Made by a program: the position numbers and the translations under genes
Notes under the pieces: model-generated
The model's database searches: none
Told to the model about the DNA's origin: nothing
What the model saw: only the letters and a program-made list of their open reading frames with translations
Origin: a virus
DNA length: 41,522 nucleotides
Virus record (IMG/VR): IMGVR_UViG_3300036806_000093
Span: 1-41,522 of that record
Direction: 5' to 3' (one strand)
Part shown: piece after piece, positions 1 to 41,522 of the stretch
Numbering within the stretch: the stretch's first letter is position 1
How the letters are laid out: each line of letters begins with the position of its first letter

Positions 1-99
1 CATTTGGGATTGATCCCACTAAGGTCAGATATGCGAACCGATGTGCTTGCATCGTCTTCCCATGAAATTGCATCGTGCCATAGCCGCGCTTTTGTTTGG
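1..99. repeat. 99-bp direct repeat, left copy (circle junction)
   Basis: These 99 bases are identical to 39306-39404. The sequences diverge at base 100, where this copy runs into the 5' part of an HNH gene and the right copy runs into a transposon end. The last two matching bases (GG) are shared by chance between the HNH gene and the transposon terminus, so the true shared HNH sequence may be 97 bp. The simplest reading is a contig-end overlap that closes a 39,305-bp circle; a genuine short terminal repeat is also possible. Confidence 0.9.
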
Positions 100-3629: not shown

Positions 3630-3865
3630 ATCGCCTCCTGCACGCTATACCTCGCGGAGCCATCGCTAGGCTCGCCTTGGCTGTGAGCGGGCTTCGGCTT
3701 GAGTTTGTAGCGCGTTTTGCGGCCGCAACGTGGGCAGGCTATCGTCCGCATGTTGATATAGTCGCCGTCGCTGGTGAACTCCGGGCCGACGCCAAGCAGC
3801 TTGCCACGCCTATGGCCGCCGCCTAGTAACTTCGGTAGCGCGCAGATGACTCTGCCTAGGATCAC
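3626..3865 (-). CDS. Small CxxC protein (79 aa, GTG start)
   Basis: GTG at 3865 overlaps the upstream stop as GTGA and has GGAGG 4 nt away. The middle carries CPRCGRKTRYK, half of a zinc ribbon; no second Cys pair is evident apart from a Cys near residue 8. Function unknown; part of the leftward early operon before the exonuclease. Confidence 0.6.
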   Translation of the reverse strand: MILGRVICALPKLLGGGHRRGKLLGVGPEFTSDGDYINMRTIACPRCGRKTRYKLKPKPAHSQGEPSDGSARYSVQEAI

Positions 3866-4077
3866 GATGCCTCCTCTATCTTGCCAAGATACTTCATGTC
3901 GTTCTCAATCGAGTTCAATTGAAGTCTGAAGATCCCGATTACTTCCTCATTGCGCGGCAGATGCTTTTCCAGGGCTCTAAGGACTTTTATCGCGCCGTTG
4001 ACGCGCTCACTCGTGAAATGCAACGTCCGAGTGCAACCCTCCAAACGACTCACTAACGATTCATCAGCTTTTGCCAT
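3862..4077 (-). CDS. Hypothetical helical protein (71 aa)
   Basis: AGGAGG lies 3 nt before ATG 4077. The protein is almost entirely helical with heptad-like leucines (VSRLEGCTRTL, IKVLRALEKHLP, LQLNSIENDMKYLGKI), so it may be a small coiled-coil oligomer. It overlaps both neighbours. No family recognised. Confidence 0.6.
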   Translation of the reverse strand: MAKADESLVSRLEGCTRTLHFTSERVNGAIKVLRALEKHLPRNEEVIGIFRLQLNSIENDMKYLGKIEEAS

Positions 4078-4237
4078 GTGCCTCCTTCACAATCTTCGCC
4101 ACGTCGCGCGCAGCTTGTCGTACACGTTCGATGAAAGGTGCAAGTTCCTCGTGCGTGAAGCGGCGTCGGATGGGAATGTTCATTTCCACGCACCTCGCCT
4201 CGGACAGCAGCAGCAGCTCGCGCTCGAAGATTGTCAT
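4064..4237 (-). CDS. Small hypothetical protein (57 aa)
   Basis: This short ORF runs from ATG 4237 to TGA 4064 and overlaps the next gene by 14 nt. The sequence starts MTIFERELLLLSEARC and is helical and charged. It is real on context: it fills the gap between two coupled genes in the same direction and its own 3' end contains the next gene's Shine-Dalgarno. Function unknown. Confidence 0.5.
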   Translation of the reverse strand: MTIFERELLLLSEARCVEMNIPIRRRFTHEELAPFIERVRQAARDVAKIVKEAHGKS

Positions 4238-4241
4238 GGGC

Positions 4242-4364
4242 TCACCAGAACTTTAAGATGAAGTGGACAAGGGCATATACGGCGGCTACAGCCACAACGA
4301 GCATTACGGCGACGTATAGAGCCACGATAAGCTCAGTTAGCGTCCAACCCTTTTGCGTTCTCAT
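4242..4364 (-). CDS. 40-aa membrane protein with prepilin-like N-terminus
   Basis: This 40-residue ORF starts at ATG 4364 (ATGA overlap with the upstream stop). It reads MRTQKGWTLTELIVALYV and continues as one long hydrophobic helix ending HFILKFW. A short basic leader, Gly, then a hydrophobic stretch with Glu at mature position 5 is the class III (type IV prepilin) signal arrangement. This could be chance in a tiny TM protein, or the phage may make a pilin mimic that interferes with pili. The gene is supported by tight coupling; the pilin interpretation is speculative. Confidence 0.5.
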   Translation of the reverse strand: MRTQKGWTLTELIVALYVAVMLVVAVAAVYALVHFILKFW

Positions 4365-4684
4365 TTCGGCTCCAGTTCGCGCAGCAGCGCGCGGGCTTTG
4401 GGAATATATGGCGGCTCGCCCCGGTGTCCGCGTCCAAATCCCTCCTTCTTCAAAATCACCGTCAGCGCCTCGATCAACCTGGCGCGGTCGGCTTCGAGCT
4501 TGCGGCCGAGCCTAGCGAGATCCAACTCACGGTCTGTATTGGCGGGTTGAAGTTCGCGCAACAGCGCATCCGTCATCGGCGTTGCGGCCTTGTCGGTCAT
4601 GAGGTGGCCTTGGTGGTTGCAATGATGGAAAATCCTCTTGAGCCATTCGGGCGTGGCGCTCCATGTTCCTTCCTTCGTGCTCAT
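4361..4684 (-). CDS. TDA/RKLE paralogue, hypothetical early protein
   Basis: With ATG 4684 (strong GGGAGGA 4 nt upstream) the protein is 107 aa. An internal ATG at 4600 gives 79 aa starting MTDKAATPMTDA, which aligns with the start of the protein at 9697-9972 (MTDKIATPLTDA). Both then share a RKLEADRARL(I/V) coiled-coil segment and end ARALLRE(L/M)E. The DNA around both internal starts is also alike (AAGGCCACCTCATGACCGACAAG-like), so this is a duplicated gene. The first 28 residues may be a gained extension. Function unknown. Confidence 0.65.
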   Translation of the reverse strand: MSTKEGTWSATPEWLKRIFHHCNHQGHLMTDKAATPMTDALLRELQPANTDRELDLARLGRKLEADRARLIEALTVILKKEGFGRGHRGEPPYIPKARALLRELEPK

Positions 4685-4689
4685 GATTC

Positions 4690-4709
4690 CTCCCAATGTG
4701 TTGGAGTGG
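4690..4709 (-). promoter_or_regulatory. Repeated 20-bp leader, copy 1 (includes Shine-Dalgarno)
   Basis: On the minus strand this reads CCACTCCAACACATTGGGAG, ending in the Shine-Dalgarno of the gene starting at 4684. The identical 20 bases precede the gene at 10186-10359 (copy at 10366-10385). Conservation beyond the ribosome site suggests a shared translational or transcriptional control element, or recent duplication. Confidence 0.65.
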
Positions 4710-4710
4710 G

Positions 4711-5157
4711 TTAGGCTGGTTTGGGTGGGGTTTGACTGCGAAATTGCATGGCATCCCGCACAAGGTTGTCATAAATATCCCTTGGAACAGGCGGAAGACC
4801 TTCGATGCTTTGCGCCATTGCGGCTCGCTCCTTGTCAGCTTGCTCATGCGCTGGATATTGCTCGTCAATTTCCCAGATGACTTGATGAGCTTGAGCAAGC
4901 GCCGAATAGGCAAATCCTCGTAGTCGCTCACACTTCACAGACAAGTTATAGAACTCCACAAGAATGGACTCAAATATGAATTTCTCATCTACCCCAGTTC
5001 TGTAGGCATTACAAAGATCACGCCAGTTTTCTGCTGAGAGTTTTTCATAGGGGATTCTCCCTGAACTGTCCATAATAATGGAAATGAACGGCTTGACCGC
5101 CAGCAACAGATCGCTATAACCAGCACTTAATTGAGCGCCCCCTTTATCATTGCTCAT
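4711..5157 (-). CDS. Hypothetical early protein (148 aa)
   Basis: An acidic helical protein with no recognised domain. It starts at ATG 5157 inside an ATGA overlap with the upstream gene; GAGG lies 7 nt upstream. A PPVPRDIYDNLVRDAMQF segment closes the protein. The following 26-nt gap to the next gene carries the repeated 20-bp leader. Confidence 0.65.
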   Translation of the reverse strand: MSNDKGGAQLSAGYSDLLLAVKPFISIIMDSSGRIPYEKLSAENWRDLCNAYRTGVDEKFIFESILVEFYNLSVKCERLRGFAYSALAQAHQVIWEIDEQYPAHEQADKERAAMAQSIEGLPPVPRDIYDNLVRDAMQFRSQTPPKPA

Positions 5158-5459
5158 CTCCCGGCCTCATCAAGAACCTCGCGCATATCAGCGAGCGCCG
5201 CCATGAATTCCTCATCATCCCTGAACATCTTTTCGCATTGCATCATCTGCTCATAGGCGTAGCCTAAGGCGTTCAGCGACTTTGTGAGGAATGCCCGAAG
5301 TTCGCGCATATCCTTGCGAAGCGCATTCCGCTGGACCACGGCTTGCTCTACATCTGGCGGAAGAGCATGGGGTTGCGGATTCACTTCGCGCAACATTCCA
5401 GCGACTTCTTCCGTAACGGCGTGTTGCTCCATCTGCTGTGCCAATGACTGCTTCTCCAT
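5154..5459 (-). CDS. Hypothetical coiled-coil early protein (101 aa)
   Basis: First gene of the leftward operon. The protein is highly charged and helical (VEQAVVQRNALRKDMRELRAFL), suggesting a coiled coil. ATG 5459 follows a GGAGGGAATC Shine-Dalgarno. A 13-bp element just upstream of that site is repeated in front of the gene at 10391-10609, and a sigma70-like promoter lies at 5501-5529. Confidence 0.65.
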   Translation of the reverse strand: MEKQSLAQQMEQHAVTEEVAGMLREVNPQPHALPPDVEQAVVQRNALRKDMRELRAFLTKSLNALGYAYEQMMQCEKMFRDDEEFMAALADMREVLDEAGR

Positions 5460-5474
5460 GATTCCCTCCTAAGT

Positions 5475-5487
5475 CCGCCAGAATAGC
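5475..5487 (-). promoter_or_regulatory. Repeated 13-bp leader element, copy 1
   Basis: Minus-strand GCTATTCTGGCGG is found 5 nt upstream of a GGAGGGAA Shine-Dalgarno. The same 13 bases occur at 10626-10638, again just upstream of GGAGGGAA. Here it sits in a possible CCAG/CTGG hairpin. It could be an RNA leader or a protein-binding site controlling early genes. Confidence 0.5.
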
Positions 5488-5500
5488 TGGTACGGAAGAG

Positions 5501-5529
5501 ATTCTGCGCTTGCCTAGCGGTACGGTCAA
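5501..5529 (-). promoter_or_regulatory. Candidate sigma70 promoter, leftward early operon
   Basis: On the minus strand TTGACC (5529-5524) is followed after exactly 17 nt by CAGAAT (5506-5501). The -35 box matches 5/6 and the -10 box 4/6 of consensus. It points at the first gene of the leftward operon, 42 nt before its ATG. Confidence 0.55.
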
Positions 5530-5571
5530 GCGATATTTTGCGTCCAATGGAATCAGTACCTTGCGCTAGGC

Positions 5572-5600
5572 TTGACGCGCGCTGCGTTCCATGCCAGGAT
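5572..5600 (+). promoter_or_regulatory. Candidate sigma70 promoter, rightward replication operon
   Basis: TTGACG (5572-5577), a 17-nt spacer and CAGGAT (5595-5600) point toward the gene at 5609. The -10 box is weak (3/6). Predicted initiation would fall at or just before the ATG. Together with 5501-5529 it makes this gap a divergent early control region. Confidence 0.35.
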
Positions 5601-5608
5601 TGCAGCCC

Positions 5609-5764
5609 ATGAATACACCTTTGACGAAGGCCGAGCGAGAACTCATGGCGAAGATCGGCAGTAGGGGAGGGAAAGCGCGCAAACGCAATCTCTCCAAGGC
5701 CGAACTAACCAAGATAGGCAAGCTCGGCGCTAAGGCCAGACATGCGAAACGCAACGGTCAATAG
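5609..5764 (+). CDS. Small basic protein with KIGxxGxKAR repeats (51 aa)
   Basis: A lysine/arginine-rich protein with two copies of a (A/T)KIG-x-x-G-x-KAR motif (AKIGSRGGKAR and TKIGKLGAKAR). Small phage proteins with GG(K/R)AR...KAAxxR repeats are common and probably bind nucleic acid. The ATG at 5609 has an AGGA about 9 nt upstream; an in-frame ATG at 5645 is an alternative. First rightward gene after the divergent promoters. The 170 bp after it (5765-5935) has no clear gene; I see no terminator there. Confidence 0.55.
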   Translation: MNTPLTKAERELMAKIGSRGGKARKRNLSKAELTKIGKLGAKARHAKRNGQ

Positions 5765-5935
5765 CTCGCGAGGTTCATTTACAGAATGACTCGTCACCGC
5801 AGTCACCGCAGGATAACTACGTGTCATCGCTGGGCAGTTCCGTTCGCGGGCAACGCTCTTTGCGGACCTGTCATCTCTCAAAACATGCGACGCCGAGCGC
5901 ATGACTAATCCTGCTGACTCGGCATGGGAGGAGAA

Positions 5936-6160
5936 ATGATTCGTTGGAAATTGAAGCGTTCGGAATACTTGAAGCTCAATGGATTGCTGCACCTCGCGCA
6001 CAAGTATTCCGCCATCTTGCGCGACATTGAAGAAGAAATGTGCAGGATAACTGGCGAAGACCCGCAAGAAGGAGGCCACACAGGGGACGCCATTTATTCA
6101 GATTACACGGTAGATCAGCTTCTCAGAAAACTCAAGGCGCAAGCCGCGAGAACAAAATGA
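5936..6160 (+). CDS. Hypothetical protein (74 aa)
   Basis: ATG 5936 was chosen over the in-frame ATG at 5924 because GGGAGGAGAA precedes it directly. The N-terminal part is a basic helix (WKLKRSEYLKLNGLLHLAHKY) and the C-terminus is helical and charged. It overlaps the next gene by 4 nt (ATGA), so it belongs to the replication operon. No family recognised. Confidence 0.65.
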   Translation: MIRWKLKRSEYLKLNGLLHLAHKYSAILRDIEEEMCRITGEDPQEGGHTGDAIYSDYTVDQLLRKLKAQAARTK

Positions 6161-6627
6161 AGCTCCCGTACGAAACTTCTACCGCTGGTTCACGCGCCTT
6201 AGATCAATTACAAAAGACGCTCGATAAGTTCGGGTGCCAATCCTTCGGGGTGATGACAGACAATGAGCGCGGCCTTACTATCGTGCAATTCAAATGGCGC
6301 GACAGGGCTGTGTCCTTGGAGGCGTCCTGGAAAGGCTACGCTCAAGCGTGGGTCAAGGAGCATCCTGGGAATTTCGGTTCCTGGCAGCAAGAGGCCCGCA
6401 AGAAGCACGAGGCCAAGGCTACCGCGATTGCGCAGGTCGCGGTCTGCTCCGTGCTACGAGACTGGGTCAAAGGACAAGTCACCGCCATAGAATGCGGCGT
6501 TCTGAGCTTCGAGGCTGCATTCATGCCGCATCTACTCTTGAAGAATGGCATGCGCGTGATCGACAAAATACGCTCGGATAATCTCCTTCCAGCGCCAGCA
6601 GACGAAAAGGTCGTGGCGCTCAAATGA
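6157..6627 (+). CDS. Conserved phage protein of unknown function (156 aa)
   Basis: The start at ATG 6157 overlaps the previous stop. The pattern MKLPYETST near the start, WKGYAQAWVKEHP in the middle and LRDWVKGQVTAIECGVLSFEAAF toward the end (residues ~100-125) matches a widespread conserved hypothetical protein of phage replication regions that I recognise by pattern only. It is coupled directly to the VRR-NUC nuclease gene. Activity unknown. Confidence 0.75.
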   Translation: MKLPYETSTAGSRALDQLQKTLDKFGCQSFGVMTDNERGLTIVQFKWRDRAVSLEASWKGYAQAWVKEHPGNFGSWQQEARKKHEAKATAIAQVAVCSVLRDWVKGQVTAIECGVLSFEAAFMPHLLLKNGMRVIDKIRSDNLLPAPADEKVVALK

Positions 6628-7118
6628 AACGCCTGCGCTTCGCCCCGAAGCTAAGGGATCGCCTCCTCGCAAATAACCGCGCTGACGCTGGCTACGCTCG
6701 CCTCTACGGCAAGGAACCGATTGCGCAGGCCGAGATTGCGCCCAAGCGGGAGTACAAGCGCAACGAGGGGCGTGTATCTGAGAGCGATGTGAATGACGTG
6801 GTACGCCAGTTCTCGGCGGATCATAGCGGACGGCTCAAGCTTTGGCGAAATAACCGCGGTGCTGTAGCTATGGCGGGCGGCGCGCTTGTCACTTACGGCG
6901 TGGGGCCGAATGGCGCGAGCGACTTCATCGGCTACCGTGAGGTCACCATCACGCAAGCGATGGTCGGCAGCGTCATCGCACAATTCATCGCTGCCGAATC
7001 AAAAGCCCCCGACGCTGGTCCGCCCGGTGATGCTCAGATACGCTTCATCGAGCGCATCAATGACGCTGGCGGCGTCGCTATCGTGGTACGCGAACGCAAA
7101 GACTTGGATCAGCTATGA
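6624..7118 (+). CDS. VRR-NUC domain endonuclease
   Basis: The 164-residue protein carries the VRR-NUC (PD-(D/E)XK superfamily) pattern: WRNNRGAV, GPNGASDFIG (D100), IAAESKAP (E125, K127) and an IRFIERINDAGGVAIVV segment with Q138. These are structure-selective nucleases; in phages they may process replication or recombination intermediates before packaging. ATGA overlaps on both sides place it in the replication operon with the helicase-primase. Confidence 0.85.
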   Translation: MKRLRFAPKLRDRLLANNRADAGYARLYGKEPIAQAEIAPKREYKRNEGRVSESDVNDVVRQFSADHSGRLKLWRNNRGAVAMAGGALVTYGVGPNGASDFIGYREVTITQAMVGSVIAQFIAAESKAPDAGPPGDAQIRFIERINDAGGVAIVVRERKDLDQL

Positions 7119-7282
7119 CCCGCCCCACCGGAACGCTAATCTCCGCAACGAACCAGCTCCAAGTCATCCGCGTTCTCGGCGCAGGCAAGCTCGAAGCCGA
7201 GGAGCGGCAACTCAAGGCGATCCGCAATCGACGCAATTACCTGTCCAGGACTCGGACTGCGGGCGGACGGTGGGCGAAGTAG
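7115..7282 (+). CDS. Small basic hypothetical protein (55 aa)
   Basis: A short ORF starting at ATG 7115 (ATGA overlap) and ending in TAG immediately before the next ATG at 7283. The protein is arginine-rich toward its end (AIRNRRNYLSRTRTAGGRW). It is supported mainly by perfect spacing between two genes. Function unknown. Confidence 0.5.
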   Translation: MTRPTGTLISATNQLQVIRVLGAGKLEAEERQLKAIRNRRNYLSRTRTAGGRWAK

Positions 7283-7543
7283 ATGCTCGACGCCGCCGAG
7301 CTGGAGAACCCGATCCCGAGAGTGAGGGCATGCTTACGGCGCGGCAACGAGCGCGCGATGTGGCGCATCGCAGATCGCATGGCGCGCGTGCTGTGGTGCA
7401 GTATGGCGCACGAGGATTACGAGGTGTACCCTGAGCAGCCCTGGGAGAAGTTGCCCGAAGGCGTGCGCATGAAGCTGCATCATTCCATGTGGATGTGCAT
7501 CACGCTCGTTAATCGAATCGTAGAGCTGGCGCCGACGAGGTAA
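7283..7543 (+). CDS. Hypothetical protein (86 aa)
   Basis: The ORF begins directly after the preceding stop codon (TAG-ATG). It contains RVRACLRRGNERAMWRIADRMARVLW and a methionine-rich segment. No domain recognised. Its position just ahead of the helicase-primase suggests a replication-linked role. Confidence 0.55.
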   Translation: MLDAAELENPIPRVRACLRRGNERAMWRIADRMARVLWCSMAHEDYEVYPEQPWEKLPEGVRMKLHHSMWMCITLVNRIVELAPTR

Positions 7544-7549
7544 CTGCAC

Positions 7550-9700
7550 TTGGAGCAGGAGGAGGGGCTCGTTGCGTTCGTATCCAGGTTCCTTCCTGGA
7601 CTAAAAAAAAACGGGGGAGAATGCCATCATGCTTGCCCGTTCCATTCGGATGAGGGCGAGTCCTTCCGCATAGACGACAGCGCATGGCGCTGTCTGGTTT
7701 GCGCGGAACAGGAACGCTTCTCGAATGACGCATCCGGTTTCTTGCAAGCGTTCCTCGGTTGCGATGCCGCGCATGCCCAATACGAGCTTGACCATCTGGA
7801 CGGACTTCCACAGGCGATGCCGATCGAGCAGGCGAAGCTGCGCCGTCCGTGCTTCTTCGGACTCGGCCTAGCCCTCAAGCGCCCGGGGGTCAAGCTGTGG
7901 ATACACGATGACTACGATGCGACCTTCGCAGCGCGCGAGCTGATCCCGGAGCGAGCGCACTTAGGCTACATCGAGGGGCGCTCCCTCGGAGAGCTTGGCC
8001 TCCCGGAGCGGCAATATTGCGTGCTGGTGCCTTCCGGTGCGCGCGGCTCCTGGGAACGCATGGTCAAGGTGGCGAACGTGTTGCATCAGGCCGGGCACGA
8101 TGTGCGCTTGATCGATGCCCGCGACCGGCCCTGGGACTGGCGCATCGGCTCGATACCAGAGACGCATGACGAGATTTTTGACTGGGCGACCAAGCAGATG
8201 CGTAAGTGGCCGCTCAAAGACAATGACGCGGCGCAGCAGAGCCCCGTAAGCGCGAGCCTCGGGACGAACGCCGGACTCACGACAGCGGCCTACTCTGTCC
8301 CCGGCGAAGCTCCAACCTCTGCTGCTGCCGCGTCTCCCTTTGCCGTCCCGCAGGGTACGCCGGAACTCCCTGCCTCAGCCCCCCCGCCTACGCCTGCCAA
8401 CTCCCTTCGGTCGGACCTCCCCGGCCAAATCACGGCAGCGGGCGAGGGGCTTGAGGTACAGCAACCGGCGAGCGGGACGGCTCCTATAACGCCACGGGCC
8501 GCGCCAGGTGAGCCCCCAGCACGCTCAAACGGCTCCGCTGGCCCTCCGCTATCACCCGAGGACCGCGTGCGTGCCTACGAGGCCCAAGCCCGCGCCGAAG
8601 TCCTCTCCGGCATGGTCTACACCTGCATCGCGGATGTGCGCCCCGAGGCGGTCAAGTGGCTCTGGCCCGGGCGCATTCCCTTGGGCGAGTTGTCCATGAT
8701 CGTGGGCGATCCGGGCTTGGGAAAGTCGCAGATATGCGCTTCGCTTACGTCAGTGGTCACTAACGGAGGTCAGTGGCCGGTAACGCGCGAACGCTGCGAT
8801 GTAGGCTCGGTGCTGATCCTATCGGCCGAGGACAACATCAAGCATACGATCCGCCCGCGCCTGGACGCGGCTGGCGCAGATGTGCAGCGCTGCCACACGC
8901 TCCAAGCCATCAAGCGCGTCGCCGAGGACGGCAGCACCTTCGAGGGTGGTTTTAACCTCGCTGAGGACTTGGCCAAGCTCTCCGTGCTCATGGATCACCT
9001 ACAGGATGTGCGCCTAGTCATCATCGATCCGGTAAGCGCCTACCTCGGCGAGACCGACTCGCACAAGAACGCCGAGGTGCGCGGCATGCTCGCCCCGCTC
9101 ACGACGCTGGCCGGTCGGCACAGGGCCGCGATCATCCTGGTGTCGCACCTCACCAAGTCGCAATCGACGAACGCGCTGATGCGCGTGCAGGGCTCCATCG
9201 CCTTTGCCGCCCTGTGCCGCGCCGTGTGGGGCGTCGCAGCGGACAAGGACAACCACGACCGGCGCTTGTTCATGCCGCTCAAGAACAACCTCGGCCAGGA
9301 CAAGACCGGATTGGCCTACTCGATCGAGGGGATGCAACTGGAGGCCCAGGACGAAGGCGAGCCGATACCCACATCGCGCATCCTATGGGAGTCTCAGCTT
9401 GTCGAGATGGGCGCGGACGAAGCCTTCAGCGGCTCCATGGGCTATGAGGAGCGCGGCGAGATGGACGCGGCGAAGGATTTCTTGCGCGAGCTGCTGGCCG
9501 ATGGGCGCGTCAAGGCAACCGAAGCTCAGAGCGCGGCCAAGCAGGCCGGGCACTCGCTTACGACCATCGGTCGCGCCAAGCGTGCGATGAAGGTCTTATC
9601 TGAACGCGACGGCTTCGGCCCGAAGGCCACCTTCTACTGGAAGCTGCAGCCTGAGCGGCAAGAGCAGGAATCACCGCCCAGGTCGTGGATGCCGGATTAG
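7550..9700 (+). CDS. Helicase-primase: zinc-finger N-domain plus RepA-like ATPase and C-terminal winged helix
   Basis: A 716-residue protein. Residues C29, H32, C48 and C51 form a CHC2-like zinc site as in primases. Residues ~228-340 are a Pro/Ala-rich linker. The ATPase core has Walker A GDPGLGKS (386-393) and Walker B VIIDPVSAY (D493), typical of RepA-like AAA_25 hexameric helicases. The last ~70 residues form a winged-helix-like module that is also encoded alone at 10687-11007. It likely unwinds DNA and helps priming; I cannot show primase catalysis. The start is TTG 7550 with GAGG upstream; no in-frame ATG precedes the zinc site. Nine consecutive A's (7603-7611) fall within codons 18-21. 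Confidence 0.85.
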   Translation: MEQEEGLVAFVSRFLPGLKKNGGECHHACPFHSDEGESFRIDDSAWRCLVCAEQERFSNDASGFLQAFLGCDAAHAQYELDHLDGLPQAMPIEQAKLRRPCFFGLGLALKRPGVKLWIHDDYDATFAARELIPERAHLGYIEGRSLGELGLPERQYCVLVPSGARGSWERMVKVANVLHQAGHDVRLIDARDRPWDWRIGSIPETHDEIFDWATKQMRKWPLKDNDAAQQSPVSASLGTNAGLTTAAYSVPGEAPTSAAAASPFAVPQGTPELPASAPPPTPANSLRSDLPGQITAAGEGLEVQQPASGTAPITPRAAPGEPPARSNGSAGPPLSPEDRVRAYEAQARAEVLSGMVYTCIADVRPEAVKWLWPGRIPLGELSMIVGDPGLGKSQICASLTSVVTNGGQWPVTRERCDVGSVLILSAEDNIKHTIRPRLDAAGADVQRCHTLQAIKRVAEDGSTFEGGFNLAEDLAKLSVLMDHLQDVRLVIIDPVSAYLGETDSHKNAEVRGMLAPLTTLAGRHRAAIILVSHLTKSQSTNALMRVQGSIAFAALCRAVWGVAADKDNHDRRLFMPLKNNLGQDKTGLAYSIEGMQLEAQDEGEPIPTSRILWESQLVEMGADEAFSGSMGYEERGEMDAAKDFLRELLADGRVKATEAQSAAKQAGHSLTTIGRAKRAMKVLSERDGFGPKATFYWKLQPERQEQESPPRSWMPD

Positions 9701-9972
9701 CCTGGCGCTGATTGCTCCATCTCGCGCAGCAGCGCGCGGGCATCCCTAGCGCCTTGATTGCTTTCTGGGATACGACCGAGTTTCGCCATCTGATCCAGCG
9801 AAGCGAGTGCGGACTGAAGCGCCGCGACCAGCCGCGCTCGATCGGCTTCGAGTTTGCGGGCGAAATTAGCCGGAACTACTTTGTCCATGAGAATAATCTC
9901 CTCGGCCTCAAATGGAATATTGCCCATTGTTTCAGCAGCATCGGTCAGAGGCGTTGCGATCTTGTCGGTCAT
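9697..9972 (-). CDS. TDA/FARKLE paralogue, hypothetical early protein (91 aa)
   Basis: Starts MTDKIATPLTDA and contains FARKLEADRARLVAALQ, closely resembling the proteins at 4361-4684 and 183-830. ATG 9972 overlaps the upstream stop (ATGA), which fixes the start. It converges with the helicase gene, their stops overlapping by 4 nt, so no room is left for a terminator. Function unknown; the repeated module may mediate oligomerisation. Confidence 0.7.
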   Translation of the reverse strand: MTDKIATPLTDAAETMGNIPFEAEEIILMDKVVPANFARKLEADRARLVAALQSALASLDQMAKLGRIPESNQGARDARALLREMEQSAPG

Positions 9973-10169
9973 GAGGTGGCCTTTCCGGGGATCACGGTAA
10001 AATAGCTTGGGACTACTTCTAGGATAAGCAGGAGTTCCCGAGCATCCTGTGGCGTGAGTTCGCAACGGTTGCAGTTAGCGTATGAAATCAATTTGCGCCT
10101 TAGGTCGTTGTGAAGCTTTGGCGCATTCACAGCGTCCGTGCCGATGCGGGAGATAATAGGCTTGCTCAT
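9969..10169 (-). CDS. Hypothetical protein (66 aa)
   Basis: A small protein with ELTPQDARELLLILE in its C-terminal half and a short GKATS end. The region encoding that end is also the ribosome-binding region of the next gene and is echoed at 4600-4620, supporting a duplicated gene pair. No family recognised; no clear Shine-Dalgarno precedes it. Confidence 0.55.
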   Translation of the reverse strand: MSKPIISRIGTDAVNAPKLHNDLRRKLISYANCNRCELTPQDARELLLILEVVPSYFTVIPGKATS

Positions 10170-10185
10170 GCGGCTGCCCGACCCG

Positions 10186-10359
10186 TTAGATTAGGTCGAG
10201 CTTGACAGCGAGCATTTCGCTGAAATCGTCGAGCGAGCCGAGCTTACGCTTGCGCTCGATGTTCGCGACCTCGGCGAGCGCTTCCTCGTGCGTGACTGGC
10301 CGATTCAGCCCGTAGTGTCTGCGGATGATCCTGCAAGTTTCCGTTTCGCGTTGTTTCAT
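10186..10359 (-). CDS. Small hypothetical protein (57-58 aa)
   Basis: Two adjacent ATGs (10362 and 10359) are possible starts; the second has the better 6-nt spacing to GGGAG. The protein begins MKQRETETCRIIRRHYG and has THEEALAEVANIERKRKLGS, a helical charged region. It is preceded by the 20-bp repeated leader at 10366-10385 and ends 16 nt before the next gene. Function unknown. Confidence 0.6.
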   Translation of the reverse strand: MKQRETETCRIIRRHYGLNRPVTHEEALAEVANIERKRKLGSLDDFSEMLAVKLDLI

Positions 10360-10365
10360 CATCTT

Positions 10366-10385
10366 CTCCCAATGTGTTGGAGTGG
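10366..10385 (-). promoter_or_regulatory. Repeated 20-bp leader, copy 2
   Basis: Identical to 4690-4709: minus-strand CCACTCCAACACATTGGGAG. Both copies lie between a stop codon and the next start and end in the Shine-Dalgarno sequence. Confidence 0.65.
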
Positions 10386-10390
10386 TGGGG

Positions 10391-10609
10391 TTAGTGGAAT
10401 ACCCGATTCAATGCTCTGACGGTTGCGCGCGCGCTTTGCCTCAGTCCGGACGTGCAGTCCACGCCTTCCGAATAAAACTCGGCATCTGAAAGCAGTACCA
10501 TCAATTGAGGCACTGTCGCATGTGTATCTGTAGCTGGCTTGAAAATCCCGCGCTCGATGCTGTCCTGAGCGAACTTGGGCGGAAGCTTGGTCCAGTCAAC
10601 CTTTGACAT
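10391..10609 (-). CDS. Hypothetical early protein (72 aa)
   Basis: Starts MSKVDWTKLPPKFAQDSIERG after a GGAGGGAAAG Shine-Dalgarno. The C-terminal half is helical (GLRQSARATVRALNRVF). The 13-bp leader element also found before the gene at 5459 lies just upstream. No family recognised. Confidence 0.6.
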   Translation of the reverse strand: MSKVDWTKLPPKFAQDSIERGIFKPATDTHATVPQLMVLLSDAEFYSEGVDCTSGLRQSARATVRALNRVFH

Positions 10610-10625
10610 CTTTCCCTCCTATCCC

Positions 10626-10638
10626 CCGCCAGAATAGC
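10626..10638 (-). promoter_or_regulatory. Repeated 13-bp leader element, copy 2
   Basis: Minus-strand GCTATTCTGGCGG, the same as 5475-5487. In this copy the flanks extend it into a CCCCGC/GCGGGG hairpin with a 7-nt loop. It lies about 6 nt upstream of GGAGGGAA in both places. Confidence 0.5.
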
Positions 10639-10686
10639 GGGGAGTCAGTCTGACGGGATGCGCCCGGCGCGCTGGTGCATGATGCT

Positions 10687-11007
10687 TTACGGTGTGTTGC
10701 CCTGCTCCTGCGCGGGCAAGTGCCACCAGAACCTACCTCCAGGCCCGAATCCGCGCCGTTCCGAGCGAATGCCCAGCGCGGCCTTTGCGCGCTTCAAGGT
10801 GGTCTCCTCCAGTGCGAGCGCCATGCCTTCGTTCAGCAACTCCTGCGCCGGGCGTGGACCTGCCGATAGTTGCTCGACCAGCCAAGCGATCGCACGCTCC
10901 CTCGGCCACGGCCCAGCTCGCTCCAATTCAGCTCGCAACCACGCCTCGCCGCCGAGTTTCAGGTAACTGCGCTCCTCGTCCAAGTTCAGTTCTATTTGAA
11001 GGATCAT
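10687..11007 (-). CDS. Stand-alone winged-helix module resembling the helicase C-terminus (106 aa)
   Basis: Residues ~38-100 (AIAWLVEQLSAGPRPAQEL...TLKRAKAALGI...RRGFGPGGRFWWHLP) parallel the end of the 716-residue helicase (AKDFLRELLADGRVKATEA...TIGRAKRAMKV...RDGFGPKATFYWKL). This is the winged-helix-like tail often fused to RepA-type helicases, here as a separate protein. It could bind the same DNA or partner and modulate replication. ATG 11007 lies at the predicted start point of the promoter at 11014-11043. Confidence 0.65.
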   Translation of the reverse strand: MILQIELNLDEERSYLKLGGEAWLRAELERAGPWPRERAIAWLVEQLSAGPRPAQELLNEGMALALEETTLKRAKAALGIRSERRGFGPGGRFWWHLPAQEQGNTP

Positions 11008-11013
11008 GCTGTC

Positions 11014-11043
11014 ACTCTAGCATCGGAATGCCGCGCTTGTCAA
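11014..11043 (-). promoter_or_regulatory. Candidate strong sigma70 promoter, leftward
   Basis: On the minus strand a perfect TTGACA (11043-11038) is followed after 18 nt by TAGAGT (11019-11014). Six bases separate the -10 box from ATG 11007, so transcription would start at the ATG and the message would be leaderless. Confidence 0.55.
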
Positions 11044-11368
11044 GTGGCGCGAATCATCTGCCTTCACGAGTACCCTCTGCAAATCTATGTCCACACGCCA
11101 TCTAGTGCCATGTCGCAAAGACCATTGCAAATCTATACGTAACCCCTTGTTCCCACGCAACTACTACTACTACTACTTACCATAGATTGTCGTATGGCGC
11201 ACGCGAGGACCATAGAATTTCATAAAAGCAGAGTGCCACTAACGCAACCCATGACGCTCTATGCAATCCTGACAACTAGCTGACGGAACCTGACACACAG
11301 CGTTTGCGCAGTGCAGAATGATTTGACAATGCGATATACTCTAATTCTTTAACAAGCATGGAGGATAA
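11044..11368. promoter_or_regulatory. Intergenic control region with short repeats and a rightward promoter
   Basis: This ~325-bp gene-free stretch separates leftward early genes from the rightward late block. It holds two copies of TGCAAATCTAT (11078-11088 and 11126-11136), an inverted ATAGATT core (11182-11188), a second CCATAGA (11214-11220), and a CTA/ACT triplet tract (11161-11176). Near its right end are TTGACA (11323-11328), TATACT (11335-11340) and GAGGA before an ATG at 11369. TTGACA and TATACT are only 6 nt apart, so they do not form one normal promoter; TATACT is a good -10 box with a weak -35. The repeats could be repressor operators or origin iterons. Confidence 0.45.
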
Positions 11369-11374
11369 ATGATA
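11369..11374 (+). pseudogene. Severed start of the endonuclease VII gene
   Basis: A strong GGAGGATAA Shine-Dalgarno and ATG-ATA are immediately followed by the transposon terminus at 11375. In the present sequence the reading frame continues only 15 codons into the transposon before a stop. I infer these are the original first codons of the gene whose remainder is at 12233-12563; the missing middle is not in the window. Confidence 0.5.
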
Positions 11375-11398
11375 GGCGATATTAGACTTCGCGTACCC
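11375..11398. repeat. Terminal inverted repeat (right end) of the transposon
   Basis: It reads GGCGATATTAGACTTCGCGT then ACCC. It matches the other end (39403-39426) at 22 of 24 bases, differing only at the 3rd and 17th bases. The two ends face each other once the two transposon pieces are joined. GG-starting inverted repeats are usual for the IS1595 family. The flanking phage octamer is AAATGATA. Confidence 0.8.
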
Positions 11399-11418
11399 AA
11401 CGCGGGGAGTGGGTCGGG

Positions 11419-11682
11419 ATGACCACGCGTAAGCTGGTTCTGATTGAGTGGCTCGATTCGCATTCCGGGAGCGGATGGAAGACCGTTGAACAACTTGAGC
11501 GCGTCGCTATGCCCCTCTATTGCCGCTCTGTCGGCTGGCTAGTTGCAGAGCGCAAAGAGTGCAAAGTCATCGTCCCGCATATTGGCGGCGAGAAAAACGG
11601 TGATGCGATGTTGATAGGCTGTGGGGACCTTACGATCCCCACAGACGCCATCATTAAAACGACCGTGCTGCGGCAGAAATGA
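11419..11682 (+). CDS. Transposon passenger protein (87 aa), unknown function
   Basis: The protein (MTTRKLVLIEWLDSHSG...) has a beta-rich middle and no motif I recognise. It lies next to the inverted repeat and faces the 50-aa gene tail to tail, with 3 nt between stops. No good Shine-Dalgarno precedes ATG 11419, though it overlaps the stop of the short frame from 11369. Residence inside the element marks it as cargo, not a phage gene. Confidence 0.6.
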   Translation: MTTRKLVLIEWLDSHSGSGWKTVEQLERVAMPLYCRSVGWLVAERKECKVIVPHIGGEKNGDAMLIGCGDLTIPTDAIIKTTVLRQK

Positions 11683-11685
11683 ACT

Positions 11686-11838
11686 TTACTTCCGCCCCTT
11701 GCCCGGCAACGGCACGCGTTCTACGACCGTCGTGTTCGGTCGCGCACGCGCTTCAGCGACCGGGATGAAATGCCCGGTTTTTGCGTCCCGCCCTTTGAGA
11801 CTTGTTTCCGGCGGTTTCGGCGGTTTCTTTGTGCTCAT
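11686..11838 (-). CDS. Small basic transposon passenger protein (50 aa)
   Basis: A Pro/Lys-rich protein with RDAKTGHFIPVAEA followed by NTTVVERVP. The RDAxTG(x)FI/V...EA...P..TVVE pattern occurs in many short uncharacterised bacterial proteins, some beside mobile elements; this is from memory. Its Shine-Dalgarno is excellent (GGAGGTGA, 6 nt before ATG 11838). A palindrome overlapping a plausible -10 box lies 20 nt upstream. Confidence 0.65.
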   Translation of the reverse strand: MSTKKPPKPPETSLKGRDAKTGHFIPVAEARARPNTTVVERVPLPGKGRK

Positions 11839-11857
11839 TTGAATCACCTCCTTTCTA

Positions 11858-11881
11858 CTGTATAACGGTATGGTTAAACAG
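11858..11881. promoter_or_regulatory. Operator-like 24-bp palindrome over a leftward promoter
   Basis: CTGTATAACGGTATGGTTAAACAG has 9 of 12 base pairs symmetric, with arms CTGT-x-TAAC and GTTA-x-ACAG. On the minus strand it contains TATACA, a plausible -10 box, with CTGAAA 17 nt upstream. A dimeric repressor bound here would block transcription of the 50-aa gene at 11686-11838. Confidence 0.5.
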
Positions 11882-11909
11882 TTTCAGTTCGTAATGGCGG
11901 TAACGTGGC

Positions 11910-11953
11910 GTGGAGAGCTGGCCGGTGATCAGCCGATACAACCAGCCCTCCAC
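11910..11953. other. Stable hairpin between passenger genes
   Basis: GTGGAGAGCTGG (11910-11921) and CCAGCCCTCCAC (11942-11953) pair over 12 positions with one mismatch around a 20-nt loop. It lies just past the stop of the large passenger gene at 11976 in its direction of transcription. No U-run follows, so it is not a classical intrinsic terminator; it may be a transcript-end structure or an attenuator. Confidence 0.4.
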
Positions 11954-11975
11954 GTTCTCCACGACTGCACAGTTC

Positions 11976-12232
11976 TTAAGCGCCAGTTTTCGCGTCTTTC
12001 AGTTCGATTCCCAGTTCTACGGGGCTTGCATCGTCGTACACTTGGCTAACGTTCATCGCGAACGTGCGGAACCAGCGGAGCCGGTTATCGGCTGGCCATC
12101 CTGCGTCTGCTTGTGGAATCTTCCGTAGGAGTGCCATCAGCAGTGGATCAAGATGAAGATCGCCGCCGTCGCCGCCGCCGTTCCTGCGCTTCTCAATCTC
12201 TGGCGGTTTTTCCCTCACCACCACAGCGGGCA
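11976..12232 (-). pseudogene. C-terminal part of the large transposon passenger gene
   Basis: This encodes VVVREKPPEIEKRRNGGG...LHLDPLLMALLRKIP...WPADNRLRWF..., ending DAKTGA. The segment overlapping 12141-12232 is identical to the last 92 bases of the gene visible at 40899-41522, and continuing from there (12140 to 11976, 55 codons) gives an unbroken 262-residue protein. Here the gene has no start and abuts endonuclease VII sequence. Confidence 0.8.
12141..12232. repeat. 92-bp inverted repeat, internal copy
   Basis: Exact reverse complement of 41431-41522, the right edge of the window. It is the overlap through which the two transposon pieces can be joined. Divergence beyond 12232 marks the junction with the phage endonuclease VII gene. 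Confidence 0.9.
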
Positions 12233-12563
12233 GCAGGACCCTACACAGTTTTCGCTTACTTCTAGATGGTGCCGTGTTTGCGTCAGGGAGGCTGTACGGA
12301 ATTGGCGCTATCGCAAGCTTGGAACGTCACGAGAGGAATACTTAGCGATACTGTCAGGCCAACTCGGCTCTTGTGCTATTTGCTCCAAGCAGGAAGGCGC
12401 GGTGATGGGCGGGCACAGAGGATTGCACCTCGACCATGACCACCTTACCGGCAAACGTCGTGGCATCCTGTGCTCGAACTGCAATCAGATTCTAGGGCGC
12501 GTCAAGGACAGCATAGCGCACCTTGAGCGCATGATCGCTTATCTACGCAACCACGGCGCTTGA
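12233..12563 (+). pseudogene. Recombination endonuclease VII, 5'-truncated
   Basis: The frame encodes RWCRVCVREAVRNW, then LGSCAICSK...LHLDHDHLTGKRRGILCSNCN and ends AYLRNHGA. The CxxC ... LDHDH ... RGILCxxCN pattern is the zinc-stabilised HNH core of phage endonuclease VII, which resolves branched DNA during packaging. The N-terminus is lost: upstream of 12233 the frame runs into transposon sequence. An ATG at 12153 in that sequence could give a 136-residue chimera with the catalytic core intact, so residual activity cannot be excluded. Original start codons probably lie at 11369. Confidence 0.8.
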
Positions 12564-38942: not shown

Positions 38943-39121
38943 GAGTCTGATCCAAAGACGCGCTTGAATAGAGATTCAGTCGGGCGCTTCTCCACTCGCT
39001 TGATCGTCCCGTTCGGGAAGTATTCAATCGCCTTAACCTCCGGGCATTGCCCAAGATGCTCGTGTGGCCAGCAACCACAGTAGGGGCAAGTCGGCGTCTG
39101 ACTACCTGTCACGTTGTTCAC
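38939..39121 (-). CDS. Small zinc-binding protein (60 aa)
   Basis: CPYCGCWPHEHLGQC (residues 12-26) offers four Cys and two His for zinc. The rest is a beta/basic tail (VKAIEYFPNGTIKRVEKRP). The C...PYCxxxxHEHxxxCP pattern is common in small phage proteins. ATGA overlaps with HNH upstream and the 161-aa gene downstream. Confidence 0.65.
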   Translation of the reverse strand: MNNVTGSQTPTCPYCGCWPHEHLGQCPEVKAIEYFPNGTIKRVEKRPTESLFKRVFGSDS

Positions 39122-39402
39122 AGTCTCCTCTCCTTGAGTTCGTTCTTGTGCTCGCGGGCCTTTCTCGGTTTTGTATAAGGCTTGTATTTATGCGGGCGCC
39201 TTCCTTTCCTGATCGAATCGATCAGATTGTCCGCATCGGTGCCAAGGAATAAATGCGCAGGATTGACACACAACGGAACATCGCACCGATGGCATACAAG
39301 CATCGCATTTGGGATTGATCCCACTAAGGTCAGATATGCGAACCGATGTGCTTGCATCGTCTTCCCATGAAATTGCATCGTGCCATAGCCGCGCTTTTGT
39401 TT
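39118..39402 (-). pseudogene. HNH endonuclease, C-terminal part, interrupted by transposon
   Basis: This part encodes AHRFAYLTLVG, the catalytic CHRCDVPLCVNPAHLFLGTDADN core and a basic tail ending ELKERRL. The gene is cut at 39402 by the transposon end, so the CWIWQ N-terminus is replaced by transposon-derived codons. An open frame continues to 39585 but is not the native N-terminus. Through the 99-bp repeat the 3' part joins 1-220 to give an intact 135-residue enzyme, so both interrupted and intact versions are represented. Confidence 0.8.
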
Positions 39403-39404
39403 GG
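39306..39404. repeat. 99-bp direct repeat, right copy
   Basis: Identical to 1-99 and lying within the HNH gene. After 39404 the sequence switches to the transposon. Closing the circle here gives 39,305 bp. Confidence 0.9.
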
Positions 39405-39426
39405 TGATATTAGACTTCACGTACCC
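39403..39426. repeat. Terminal inverted repeat (left end) of the transposon
   Basis: It reads GGTGATATTAGACTTCACGT then ACCC; 22 of 24 bases match 11375-11398. It contains the stop codon of the adjacent passenger gene (39417-39419). Confidence 0.8.
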
Positions 39427-39611
39427 GTCGCCTTGACGATCCATACCACGGCCAAACCTACAACGTACACAGCCACCGGGATAAGCACTCCGACGACGGC
39501 GCCCCCGAAGAACCCGAATAGACCACCAACCATCATTCCAATTAACACGCACGCGATAGCCCATAGCGCGGAGAGTACGAACCAAGCTTTTTGCCAGCCG
39601 TTTAGCTCCAT
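39417..39611 (-). CDS. Transposon passenger: small membrane protein (64 aa)
   Basis: GGGGAGGG precedes ATG 39611. The sequence MELNGWQKAWFVLSALWAIA continues with two hydrophobic helices separated by Gly-rich turns (VGGLFGFFGGAVVG), ending VKATGT inside the inverted repeat. It lies 28 nt after the 57-aa gene, in one operon with the transposase. Role unknown; small MELNGWQR-type membrane proteins occur widely in proteobacteria. Confidence 0.7.
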   Translation of the reverse strand: MELNGWQKAWFVLSALWAIACVLIGMMVGGLFGFFGGAVVGVLIPVAVYVVGLAVVWIVKATGT

Positions 39612-39639
39612 AGTGCCCTCCCCGGTCACTTGAATAGGT

Positions 39640-39813
39640 CTAGCTGCTCCCACGCTTGGGTTTCAGCACCTTGCCCATCGCATCCTCGAAGGCCTTCCCG
39701 CTCTTGTCCGCTTCCAAGTCCTTCGCGGCTTTGATGAAGCGCGCCGACTGAGCCGGATTGTCCGGCTTGGCCTTCGGCCTTCGCTTTTTTGGTTTTCCTT
39801 TTACGCCAGCCAT
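39640..39813 (-). CDS. Transposon passenger: small basic protein (57 aa)
   Basis: Begins MAGVKGKPKKRRPKAKPDNP and continues with SARFIKAAKDLEADKSGKAF. The ORF starts 2 nt after the transposase stop, so it is translationally coupled. Basic ~55-residue proteins with a RFIxAAxxL motif often sit directly after IS1595-type transposases, by memory. It may bind transposon DNA or assist the transposase. Confidence 0.65.
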   Translation of the reverse strand: MAGVKGKPKKRRPKAKPDNPAQSARFIKAAKDLEADKSGKAFEDAMGKVLKPKRGSS

Positions 39814-39815
39814 AT

Positions 39816-40763
39816 TCAGACAATAGTCGTTTCGTAGGTGAGCCGCTTGCCCTTGAAGCCTTTGAGCAGCTTGTCGGCTCTCTGCGCATCTTCCACACCG
39901 AGCGCCTTGCGGTTGTTATACCGGAAGTCAAACTCGGCAAGGTAGCGATGCAGATGGTTGTGCGCGCAGTGCTGGTAGACGCCTTTCATACCCCGCTTGA
40001 ACACCGAGAAGAATCCTTCGATGGTGTTGGTATGCATTTCGGGGTTCGCCTTGCTCACGTATTCCTTGTGCATATGGCGAACGATGCCATGGCTGGCAAA
40101 CCAGCGGCCAATGGTCAGGTAGGTAGCCGCTTCATCGGTCATTAGCTTTGCTTCGCGGGCTAGATTCTCGCGCACGATAGGTCCGATAGTTGTCGCCTTC
40201 ACGTCGTCCACGACGAAGCTACGTGCTTGGCCACTGTTGCGGTCAACGAGAGACAGCACTTTGTTCTTGTGGTGGAAGCCACGCCCGCGTTTCTCGCCTC
40301 TCGGCTTAATGGTCTTGTCGTGGCCAATGTAGGTTTCGTCCACTTCCACCACTCCGCCGTTCGCGCCGAAGGGGGCGAGGTCGCCTTCCCGCATCGCTTC
40401 CCTGATCCTGTGGGACATGAACCATGCGGACTTGAGGGTAATGCCGAGCATCCGGTGAAGCTGGTTCGAGGAAACGCCCTTCTTGCTGCTGGCAACGAGG
40501 AAAATCGCCTGTAGCCAGACGTTCATAGGGATGTGGCTGTCTTCGAAGATGCTCCCGATCTTGACGGTGAACGGCTTGCGGCAGTCGTAACACTTATAAA
40601 CGCCAATCCGGGTGCTCTTACCCCGCATCTTCCTGTTCTTCTCAACCCCGCCACAGTGCGGGCATACGGGGCCACGGGGCCAGATACGGGCTTCAACGAA
40701 CTCGTAGGCCGCTTCCTCGTTATGAAAGTAAGAGGCTGAAAGTATTGAGGGTTTTTCTGACAT
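39816..40763 (-). CDS. IS1595-family (ISXO2-like) transposase
   Basis: A 315-residue protein with an N-terminal zinc ribbon (CPHC at 34-37, CYDC at 58-61), a helical DNA-binding segment and the ISXO2-like catalytic domain: EVDETYIGH (first Asp), LMTDEAATY (second Asp) and HTNTIEGFFSVFKRGM, as in IS1595 enzymes with a DDN/E-type centre. ATG 40763 has GGGAG 7 nt upstream; in-frame ATGs at 40808 and 40778 lack this. It is driven by the promoter at 40790-40818. The ORF looks intact. Confidence 0.92.
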   Translation of the reverse strand: MSEKPSILSASYFHNEEAAYEFVEARIWPRGPVCPHCGGVEKNRKMRGKSTRIGVYKCYDCRKPFTVKIGSIFEDSHIPMNVWLQAIFLVASSKKGVSSNQLHRMLGITLKSAWFMSHRIREAMREGDLAPFGANGGVVEVDETYIGHDKTIKPRGEKRGRGFHHKNKVLSLVDRNSGQARSFVVDDVKATTIGPIVRENLAREAKLMTDEAATYLTIGRWFASHGIVRHMHKEYVSKANPEMHTNTIEGFFSVFKRGMKGVYQHCAHNHLHRYLAEFDFRYNNRKALGVEDAQRADKLLKGFKGKRLTYETTIV

Positions 40764-40789
40764 TTGGTGCTCCCTATCCATTTGTCTGC

Positions 40790-40818
40790 ATTCTATCCTA
40801 GATTTCATGGATAGTCAA
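40790..40818 (-). promoter_or_regulatory. Transposase promoter (sigma70-like)
   Basis: Minus-strand TTGACT (40818-40813), exactly 17 nt, TAGAAT (40795-40790). Both boxes are 5/6 to consensus. It directs transcription into the transposase operon. Confidence 0.7.
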
Positions 40819-40828
40819 CAGACATTGC

Positions 40829-40857
40829 TTGACGTTATCCAAATTCGGCATTATTAT
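40829..40857 (+). promoter_or_regulatory. Passenger-gene promoter (sigma70-like)
   Basis: TTGACG (40829-40834), exactly 17 nt, TATTAT (40852-40857), each 5/6 to consensus. Its -35 box lies only 10 bp from the -35 box of the transposase promoter, back to back, with GTCAA (40814-40818) and TTGAC (40829-40833) forming an inverted repeat. One regulator bound here could control both directions. Confidence 0.7.
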
Positions 40858-40898
40858 GTGTCTGCCGCCTAACCAAACGGGCGAAATGGAGTAGCCAA

Positions 40899-41522
40899 AT
40901 GAGCGAAAACGTCGAACCACTAGAAACTGAGGACGAGGACTCGGGAGAGGACGGAAAGCGGCAGCGATCCGCCATCGCTTTCCCGTACACCGACTATGAC
41001 AACGTCGCAGCCATCGCGAACTCGATCCACGAAAACGTGGGGCATGGCGATTGTTCGCCGGGGCAGCTAGCCGCATGGACGAACCAAAGCGCCAAAAGCA
41101 GCGGTTTTCGGACCCAGCTTTCCGCTGCGCGGCTCTTTGGTGTCATGGAGAGCGGCGACGTGGATGGCCTGCGTCTCACCGACTTGGGCCGTCGCATAGT
41201 TGACCCTGCCCAAGCTCGCGCGGCTAAAGCAGAGGCATTCCTTCGAGTGCCGCTGTTCAAAGCCCTTTACGAGAAATACAAGGATGGCGTTACTCCTCCG
41301 AGTGCTGCTTTGGAGAGAGAGATCGCGGGCCTCGGCGTGGCAGAGAAGCAGAAAGCTCGGGCGAGGCAAGTCTTTGAGAGTTCGGCGCAGCAAACCGGAT
41401 TCCGCCAAGCCGCTCCGAATCGGCTTGTCATGCCCGCTGTGGTGGTGAGGGAAAAACCGCCAGAGATTGAGAAGCGCAGGAACGGCGGCGGCGACGGCGG
41501 CGATCTTCATCTTGATCCACTG
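40899..41522 (+). CDS. Large transposon passenger protein, 5' part (runs off the right edge)
   Basis: From ATG 40899 (GGAG 8 nt upstream) 208 codons are visible. The sequence has RSAIAFPYTDYDNVAAIANSIHENVG, LAAWTNQSAKSSGFRTQLSAARLFGV, LRLTDLGRRIVDP, LFKALYEKYKDG and an RQVFESSAQQTGF helix, then an acidic/Gly linker. This matches a conserved proteobacterial hypothetical family (winged-helix-like by eye) that I know only by pattern. Joined to 12140-11976 it would be 262 aa. It faces away from the transposase and has its own promoter. It may be a regulator or a defence/fitness cargo; no enzymatic motif is visible. Confidence 0.7.
   Translation, partial: MSENVEPLETEDEDSGEDGKRQRSAIAFPYTDYDNVAAIANSIHENVGHGDCSPGQLAAWTNQSAKSSGFRTQLSAARLFGVMESGDVDGLRLTDLGRRIVDPAQARAAKAEAFLRVPLFKALYEKYKDGVTPPSAALEREIAGLGVAEKQKARARQVFESSAQQTGFRQAAPNRLVMPAVVVREKPPEIEKRRNGGGDGGDLHLDPL
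41431..41522. repeat. 92-bp inverted repeat, right-edge copy
   Basis: The last 92 bases of the window are the exact reverse complement of 12141-12232, inside the large passenger gene. The window probably ends here because the assembly could not resolve this repeat. Confidence 0.9.

Follow-up and report, generated by a model that had tools for sequence, protein, structure and literature searches.

A cargo-bearing IS1595-family insertion sequence at an empty and occupied site, and as a remnant at a second site, in a phage contig

The window analysed here, an IMG/VR virus record of 41,522 nucleotides, contains two pieces of a transposon at widely separated positions, one of them running to the end of the contig. 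Are these the halves of a single transposon that has been split between two places, as was originally predicted, or the traces of separate insertions? That both pieces derive from one element type is clear from their overlap, their ends and the continuity of a gene between them. The last 92 bp of the window (41431-41522) are the exact reverse complement of 12141-12232, with no longer overlap, and this is the sole inverted pair of at least 20 bp reported in the window, far beyond what chance would give. Joining 39403-41522 to the reverse complement of 11375-12140 yields an element of 2,886 bp, with 24-bp inverted ends that are identical at 22 of 24 positions (GGTGATATTAGACTTCACGTACCC on the left, GGCGATATTAGACTTCGCGTACCC on the right), an IS1595-type transposase and five small passenger ORFs; the overlap, the joined length, the ends and the reading frame were all reproduced by script, and every coordinate originally given proved correct. 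The central gene, p262, continues in frame across the join to encode 262 aa, and over its whole length the joined protein can be aligned with eight independent homologues (46-65% identity), including the residues past the join. Because full-length homologues match p262 on both sides, the join is genuine and does not merely reflect a chance overlap. The ends of the related elements L005-L009 agree with the window consensus at 18-22 of 24 positions. The 2.9-kb element is thus a transporter IS, that is, a cargo-bearing member of the IS1595 family (coordinates in Table 1).

Table 1. Features of the element, of its two sites and of the circle junction
Feature	Position	Strand	Remark
99-bp repeat, first copy, continuing into phage sequence (empty site A)	1..99	+	
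Presumed target octamer, site B, AAATGATA	11367..11374	+	7/8 A+T
Right-end remnant, site B, 858 bp	11375..12232	-	element positions 2029-2886
Right terminal inverted repeat GGCGATATTAGACTTCGCGTACCC	11375..11398	+	
ORF p87, passenger	11419..11682	+	phrog_25889, E 2.1e-6, family without assigned function
ORF p53, passenger	11686..11847	-	
p262, 3' part, in site B remnant	11976..12232	-	12141-12232 repeats 41431-41522
Endonuclease VII gene lacking its N-terminal start region, fused to remnant	12233..12563	+	PF02945, 5.1e-22
HNH_3 endonuclease gene, C-terminal part, IS-interrupted at site A	39118..39402	-	PF13392, 2.4e-9
99-bp repeat, second copy (circle closes, IS branch leaves)	39306..39404	+	
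Presumed target octamer, site A, TTTTGTTT	39395..39402	+	7/8 A+T
Left part of IS1595-type element, site A, 2,120 bp, to contig end	39403..41522	+	left end, transposase
Left terminal inverted repeat GGTGATATTAGACTTCACGTACCC	39403..39426	+	related ends in L005-L009
ORF p78, small membrane-like protein	39417..39653	-	distant relative (30%) in same place in L006 element
ORF p57, small basic protein	39640..39813	-	in many relatives, among them L005, L006, L008, L185, L206, L222
IS1595-family transposase	39816..40763	-	315 aa, start chosen by alignment to relatives; frame open to 40808
Back-to-back sigma70-like promoters (predicted)	40790..40857		between transposase and p262
p262, first 208 codons	40899..41522	+	

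The transposase matches the ISXO2-like DDE domain (PF12762, E 4.5e-36), a zinc ribbon (PF12760, 3.9e-12) and the NCBIfam model of IS1595 transposases (NF033547, 7.4e-57). Residues D157, D225 and N261/E264 are invariant in seven relatives and are candidate catalytic positions. Among the passengers, p57 recurs in many relatives and so counts as an accessory gene belonging to this type of element, whilst domain and family profile searches gave no family match for p53. The gap between the transposase and p262 genes holds two near-consensus promoters, against 0.3 expected, which are predicted to fire divergently: TTGACT-17-TAGAAT for the transposase on the minus strand (40818-40790) and TTGACG-17-TATTAT for p262 on the plus strand (40829-40857). 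An imperfect inverted repeat (40783-40824) lies over the predicted transposase promoter.

The course of the contig itself provides the state of the first site. Positions 1-99 are identical to 39306-39404, and the contig therefore makes one lap of a 39,305-bp circle (1-39305). It exits this circle two bases into the end of the IS, the GG at 39403-39404 being common to phage and element. Since the circle junction both runs on uninterrupted and runs into the IS, site A is recorded within one contig as empty (at 1-100) and as filled (from 39403). In the empty form, the HNH_3 gene reads intact past the point where the circle closes, up to position 220 or so. The contig ends at 41522, inside copy A and before any right flank, so that one flank per site is present; copy A itself is presumably full length.

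Both ends of one insertion would carry equal octamers. The octamers flanking the two pieces, TTTTGTTT and AAATGATA, differ, and two insertion events therefore need to be assumed. Both octamers are A+T at seven of their eight positions, a richness found in only 0.9% of the octamers of the phage, and the target site duplications (TSDs) of relatives average 70-78% A+T (70% in 35 viral copies). The proposal of one transposon split between two places is not supported, given these different octamers, the additional presence of an empty site A and the appearance of site B, which looks like the remnant left by a deletion.

At site B, the sequence reads GGAGG-ATAA-ATG-ATA, so that the probable start codon of the interrupted gene, an ATG behind GGAGG, lies in the octamer. 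On the other side of the remnant, the endonuclease VII frame extends back into IS sequence to 12153, and several endonuclease VII homologues have a short N-terminal CxxC segment before the point at which the window gene begins. From such alignments, it is estimated that some 30-50 bp of this gene may have been lost when the element lost its left 2,028 bp. An 858-bp remnant next to a truncated gene is the expected outcome of a deletion that spans part of the element and part of the neighbouring gene, and the remnant would accordingly have arisen by deletion after insertion. A search for the ancestral form of site B found no near phage relative (portal at most 61%, endonuclease VII best match about 49%).

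Two other histories of the pieces can be weighed against this arrangement. One copy might have moved within its own genome by inversion or deletion, leaving its left end at site A and its right end still at site B, with 39402 and 11374 as its flanks. Such an intramolecular move is expected to produce two known ends with different octamers, as found, and the relative L006 also has paired ends without a duplication; the third junction, from IS position 2029 to 12233, would be left unexplained, as would an endonuclease VII gene that apparently starts at 11369 and resumes at 12233, and the move is considered improbable. The 858-bp piece might alternatively have become fixed and domesticated, with p87 and p53 kept as phage genes and endonuclease VII translated from an IS-derived start; in favour of this are the open frame from IS sequence into endonuclease VII (12153-12563) and the resemblance of p87 to a phage family. 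However, some 27 residues antisense to p262 are added by the fusion, the endonuclease VII seems to have lost the first of the family's zinc-binding CxxC pairs, and the two copies are identical over the 92 bp in which they overlap, which suits a recent origin. Domestication is therefore very improbable.

A more general doubt is whether the IS junctions, or some of them, are artefacts of assembly, an element of the host or of another phage having been stitched on by the assembler or gap closer. The contig does break in a repeat, this type of IS is abundant elsewhere, and the end repeats are of two lengths, the 92 bp of the IS overlap and the 99 bp of the circle overlap, which a single k-mer length cannot account for at both contig ends. 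Against a chimera, the outer junctions coincide precisely with the ends of the IS and lie beside A+T-rich octamers typical of the targets of the family, as those of a random misjoin would not, and besides the GG at 39403-39404 there was no sequence found in common at the junctions that could mislead an assembler. As no repeat capable of causing a misjoin was found at 39402/39403, 11374/11375 or 12232/12233, each junction probably existed in the reads, and a chimeric origin is unlikely. The related phage contigs G003 and G007 likewise end inside the element, as expected of a multi-copy repeat.

The reading preferred here, and probably the correct one, is that a transporter IS of the IS1595 family is polymorphic at site A in the phage population and that a separate, deleted copy lies at site B. 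The IS would move within a population of 39.3-kb circularly assembled phages, its transposase recognising the 24-bp ends and inserting the element into A+T-rich octamers to give 8-bp duplications. Copy A, at 39402/39403 in the HNH endonuclease gene, would be present in some phage molecules and not in others. Copy B would have entered at the endonuclease VII ATG and then lost its left end, the duplicated octamer and the adjoining start of the gene; A and B would coexist in one population. The contig would stop in copy A near the stretch in common with remnant B because such a repeat stops the assembler. Both target genes encode endonucleases that are probably dispensable to the phage. The phage itself has genes for terminase, portal, head-tail adaptor, major head, DNA primase/helicase and exonuclease VIII-type proteins, and its tail is probably short. 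Several short direct repeats (20-46 nt, 89-100%) in 4369-4709 return some 5.3-5.7 kb further on, in 9714-10385, perhaps from a duplicated gene.

How unusual such an element is in a phage depends on which phages are considered. For cultured phages, the original view of it as unusual is borne out: relatives of the transposase were found in 4 of 50,697 records, at no more than 33% identity, and the left piece (39403-41522) gave no DNA match in cultured phages. For uncultured phages, that view finds no support. IMG/VR holds seven close relatives of the transposase (51-83% identity), and a profile search found relatives in at least 214 viral contigs; among the best 80 of these (L200-L273 and L005-L010), at least 35 have paired ends with a perfect 8-bp duplication, whilst the same scan for ends and TSDs on reversed sequences gave 1. 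The 35 intact viral copies are 2,010-5,055 bp in length, each longer than the transposase gene needs. Examples are the L007 element (2,644 bp, perfect TSD AAAAAAAT), in a phage that encodes a tape measure protein and an integrase; the L008 element (5,055 bp, perfect TSD GTTCGTTT), in a contig with portal and terminase genes; and the L009 element, at the end of a contig with genes for integrase, terminase and internal virion protein. The cargo of the L008 element (element at 4933-9987) encodes a GmrSD_N/HNH nuclease, a protein of 281 aa with weak resemblance to HslV-type peptidases and another of 232 aa, and is possibly defensive. The IS1595 element in L006 (2833-6367) carries a P63C-domain gene and lacks a target duplication, its flanks being CTTACGAG and ATTTGTAA; it may have been rearranged.

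Bacterial genomes also contain many relatives, in elements that are mostly 1.9-2.4 kb with 8-bp duplications, and a phage-specific clade of transposases was rejected, as viral and bacterial sequences interleave in the tree. In plasmids, the matches listed were all partial DNA matches of 65-74%. The joined cargo set was not found as a whole in the collections searched, and literature searches for phage-borne IS1595 elements gave nothing specific.

Of the cargo, p262 invites the most comment. Its homologues occur in Duganella, Sulfuriferula, Xanthobacteraceae, other genomes and two viral contigs, and searches of plasmids and phages gave no matches. The family has a sparse, scattered distribution (2 of 369 and 5 of 385 genomes), as a mobile gene should have, and it is carried by transposons of both the IS1595 and the IS1 type. 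In L014, the homologue lies inside a non-autonomous IS1595 element with the TSD AACTTAAA. L003, L015, L016 and L017 are IS1-type elements of about 3.3-4.0 kb with ends GGTACTG.CC, 8-9-bp duplications and a p262 homologue divergent from the transposase; in L015 the termini read GGTACTGGCC on the left and GGTCATGGCC on the right, which makes its right boundary less certain. L004 has the same pair of p262 and IS1-type transposase genes, and no convincing pair of ends was identified there. Around L012 and L013, where p262 is without a nearby transposase, a search for TSDs found nothing. Similarity between p262 and the 275-aa cargo protein of L007 is weak only (hhalign probability 36%).

The AlphaFold model of the L012 homologue has a core at residues 30-175 with a pLDDT of about 90. 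This core resembles the tandem winged-helix recognition domains of FokI and Nt.BspD6I (Z 8.6, rmsd 4.0 over 157 residues for FokI), a level of likeness that may still reflect a common arrangement, and no Foldseek match had an E value under 0.001. On the strength of this model, p262 is predicted to be a winged-helix DNA-recognition protein. Its most likely role would be that of a regulator or accessory DNA-binding factor, an assignment in which confidence is moderate; alternatively, it may be cargo that serves the host or the phage. Participation in transposase repression or in target choice is a guess. A simple repressor model is weakened by L014 and L018, where p262 and the transposase converge instead of diverging. 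The larger proposal, that p262-family proteins are transposon-encoded DNA-recognition factors with which IS1- and IS1595-type elements control or direct their transposition, through divergent promoters or target choice, and that the contig catches such an element invading a phage population, is doubtful. A role in defence was considered for p262 and set aside, the homologue having no PADLOC match.

That one site stands both empty and filled in a single contig is direct, if assembly-based, evidence that a phage population has been entered by transposition. Contigs of uncultured phages often contain IS1595 elements with cargo, cultured phage records almost never do, and phages may thus be an overlooked vehicle for these elements. 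The p262 family, common to two related transposon families, is a subject that can be tested.

The element is of a kind already known, and is one more member of it: as predicted, passenger-bearing IS1595 elements have been described, the transporter ISs being the cargo-bearing members of that family in the account of Siguier, Gagnevin and Chandler (2009), as cited in PMC3129680 and PMC12888890. It has in common with them an IS1595 transposase, short inverted ends and cargo between these, 8-bp TSDs having been measured in relatives, and differs from them in that it lies on a phage contig that shows one site both empty and filled. The elements L007 and L008 are alike in their transposases (70% and 69%, respectively), their end sequences and a p57-like ORF; they have perfect 8-bp TSDs, whereas the window element shows one flank per site, and their cargo is different, with the 275-aa protein in L007 and the GmrSD_N/HNH nuclease and others in L008. 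L014, from a Sulfuriferula MAG, also has IS1595-type ends, together with a p262 homologue (63%) and an 8-bp TSD, but is a non-autonomous element of 1,785 bp in a bacterial MAG, with transposase remnants only. The IS1-type elements L003, L015, L016 and L017 resemble the window element in carrying p262-family cargo divergent from the transposase, and are set apart by their IS1-family transposase and the ends that go with it.
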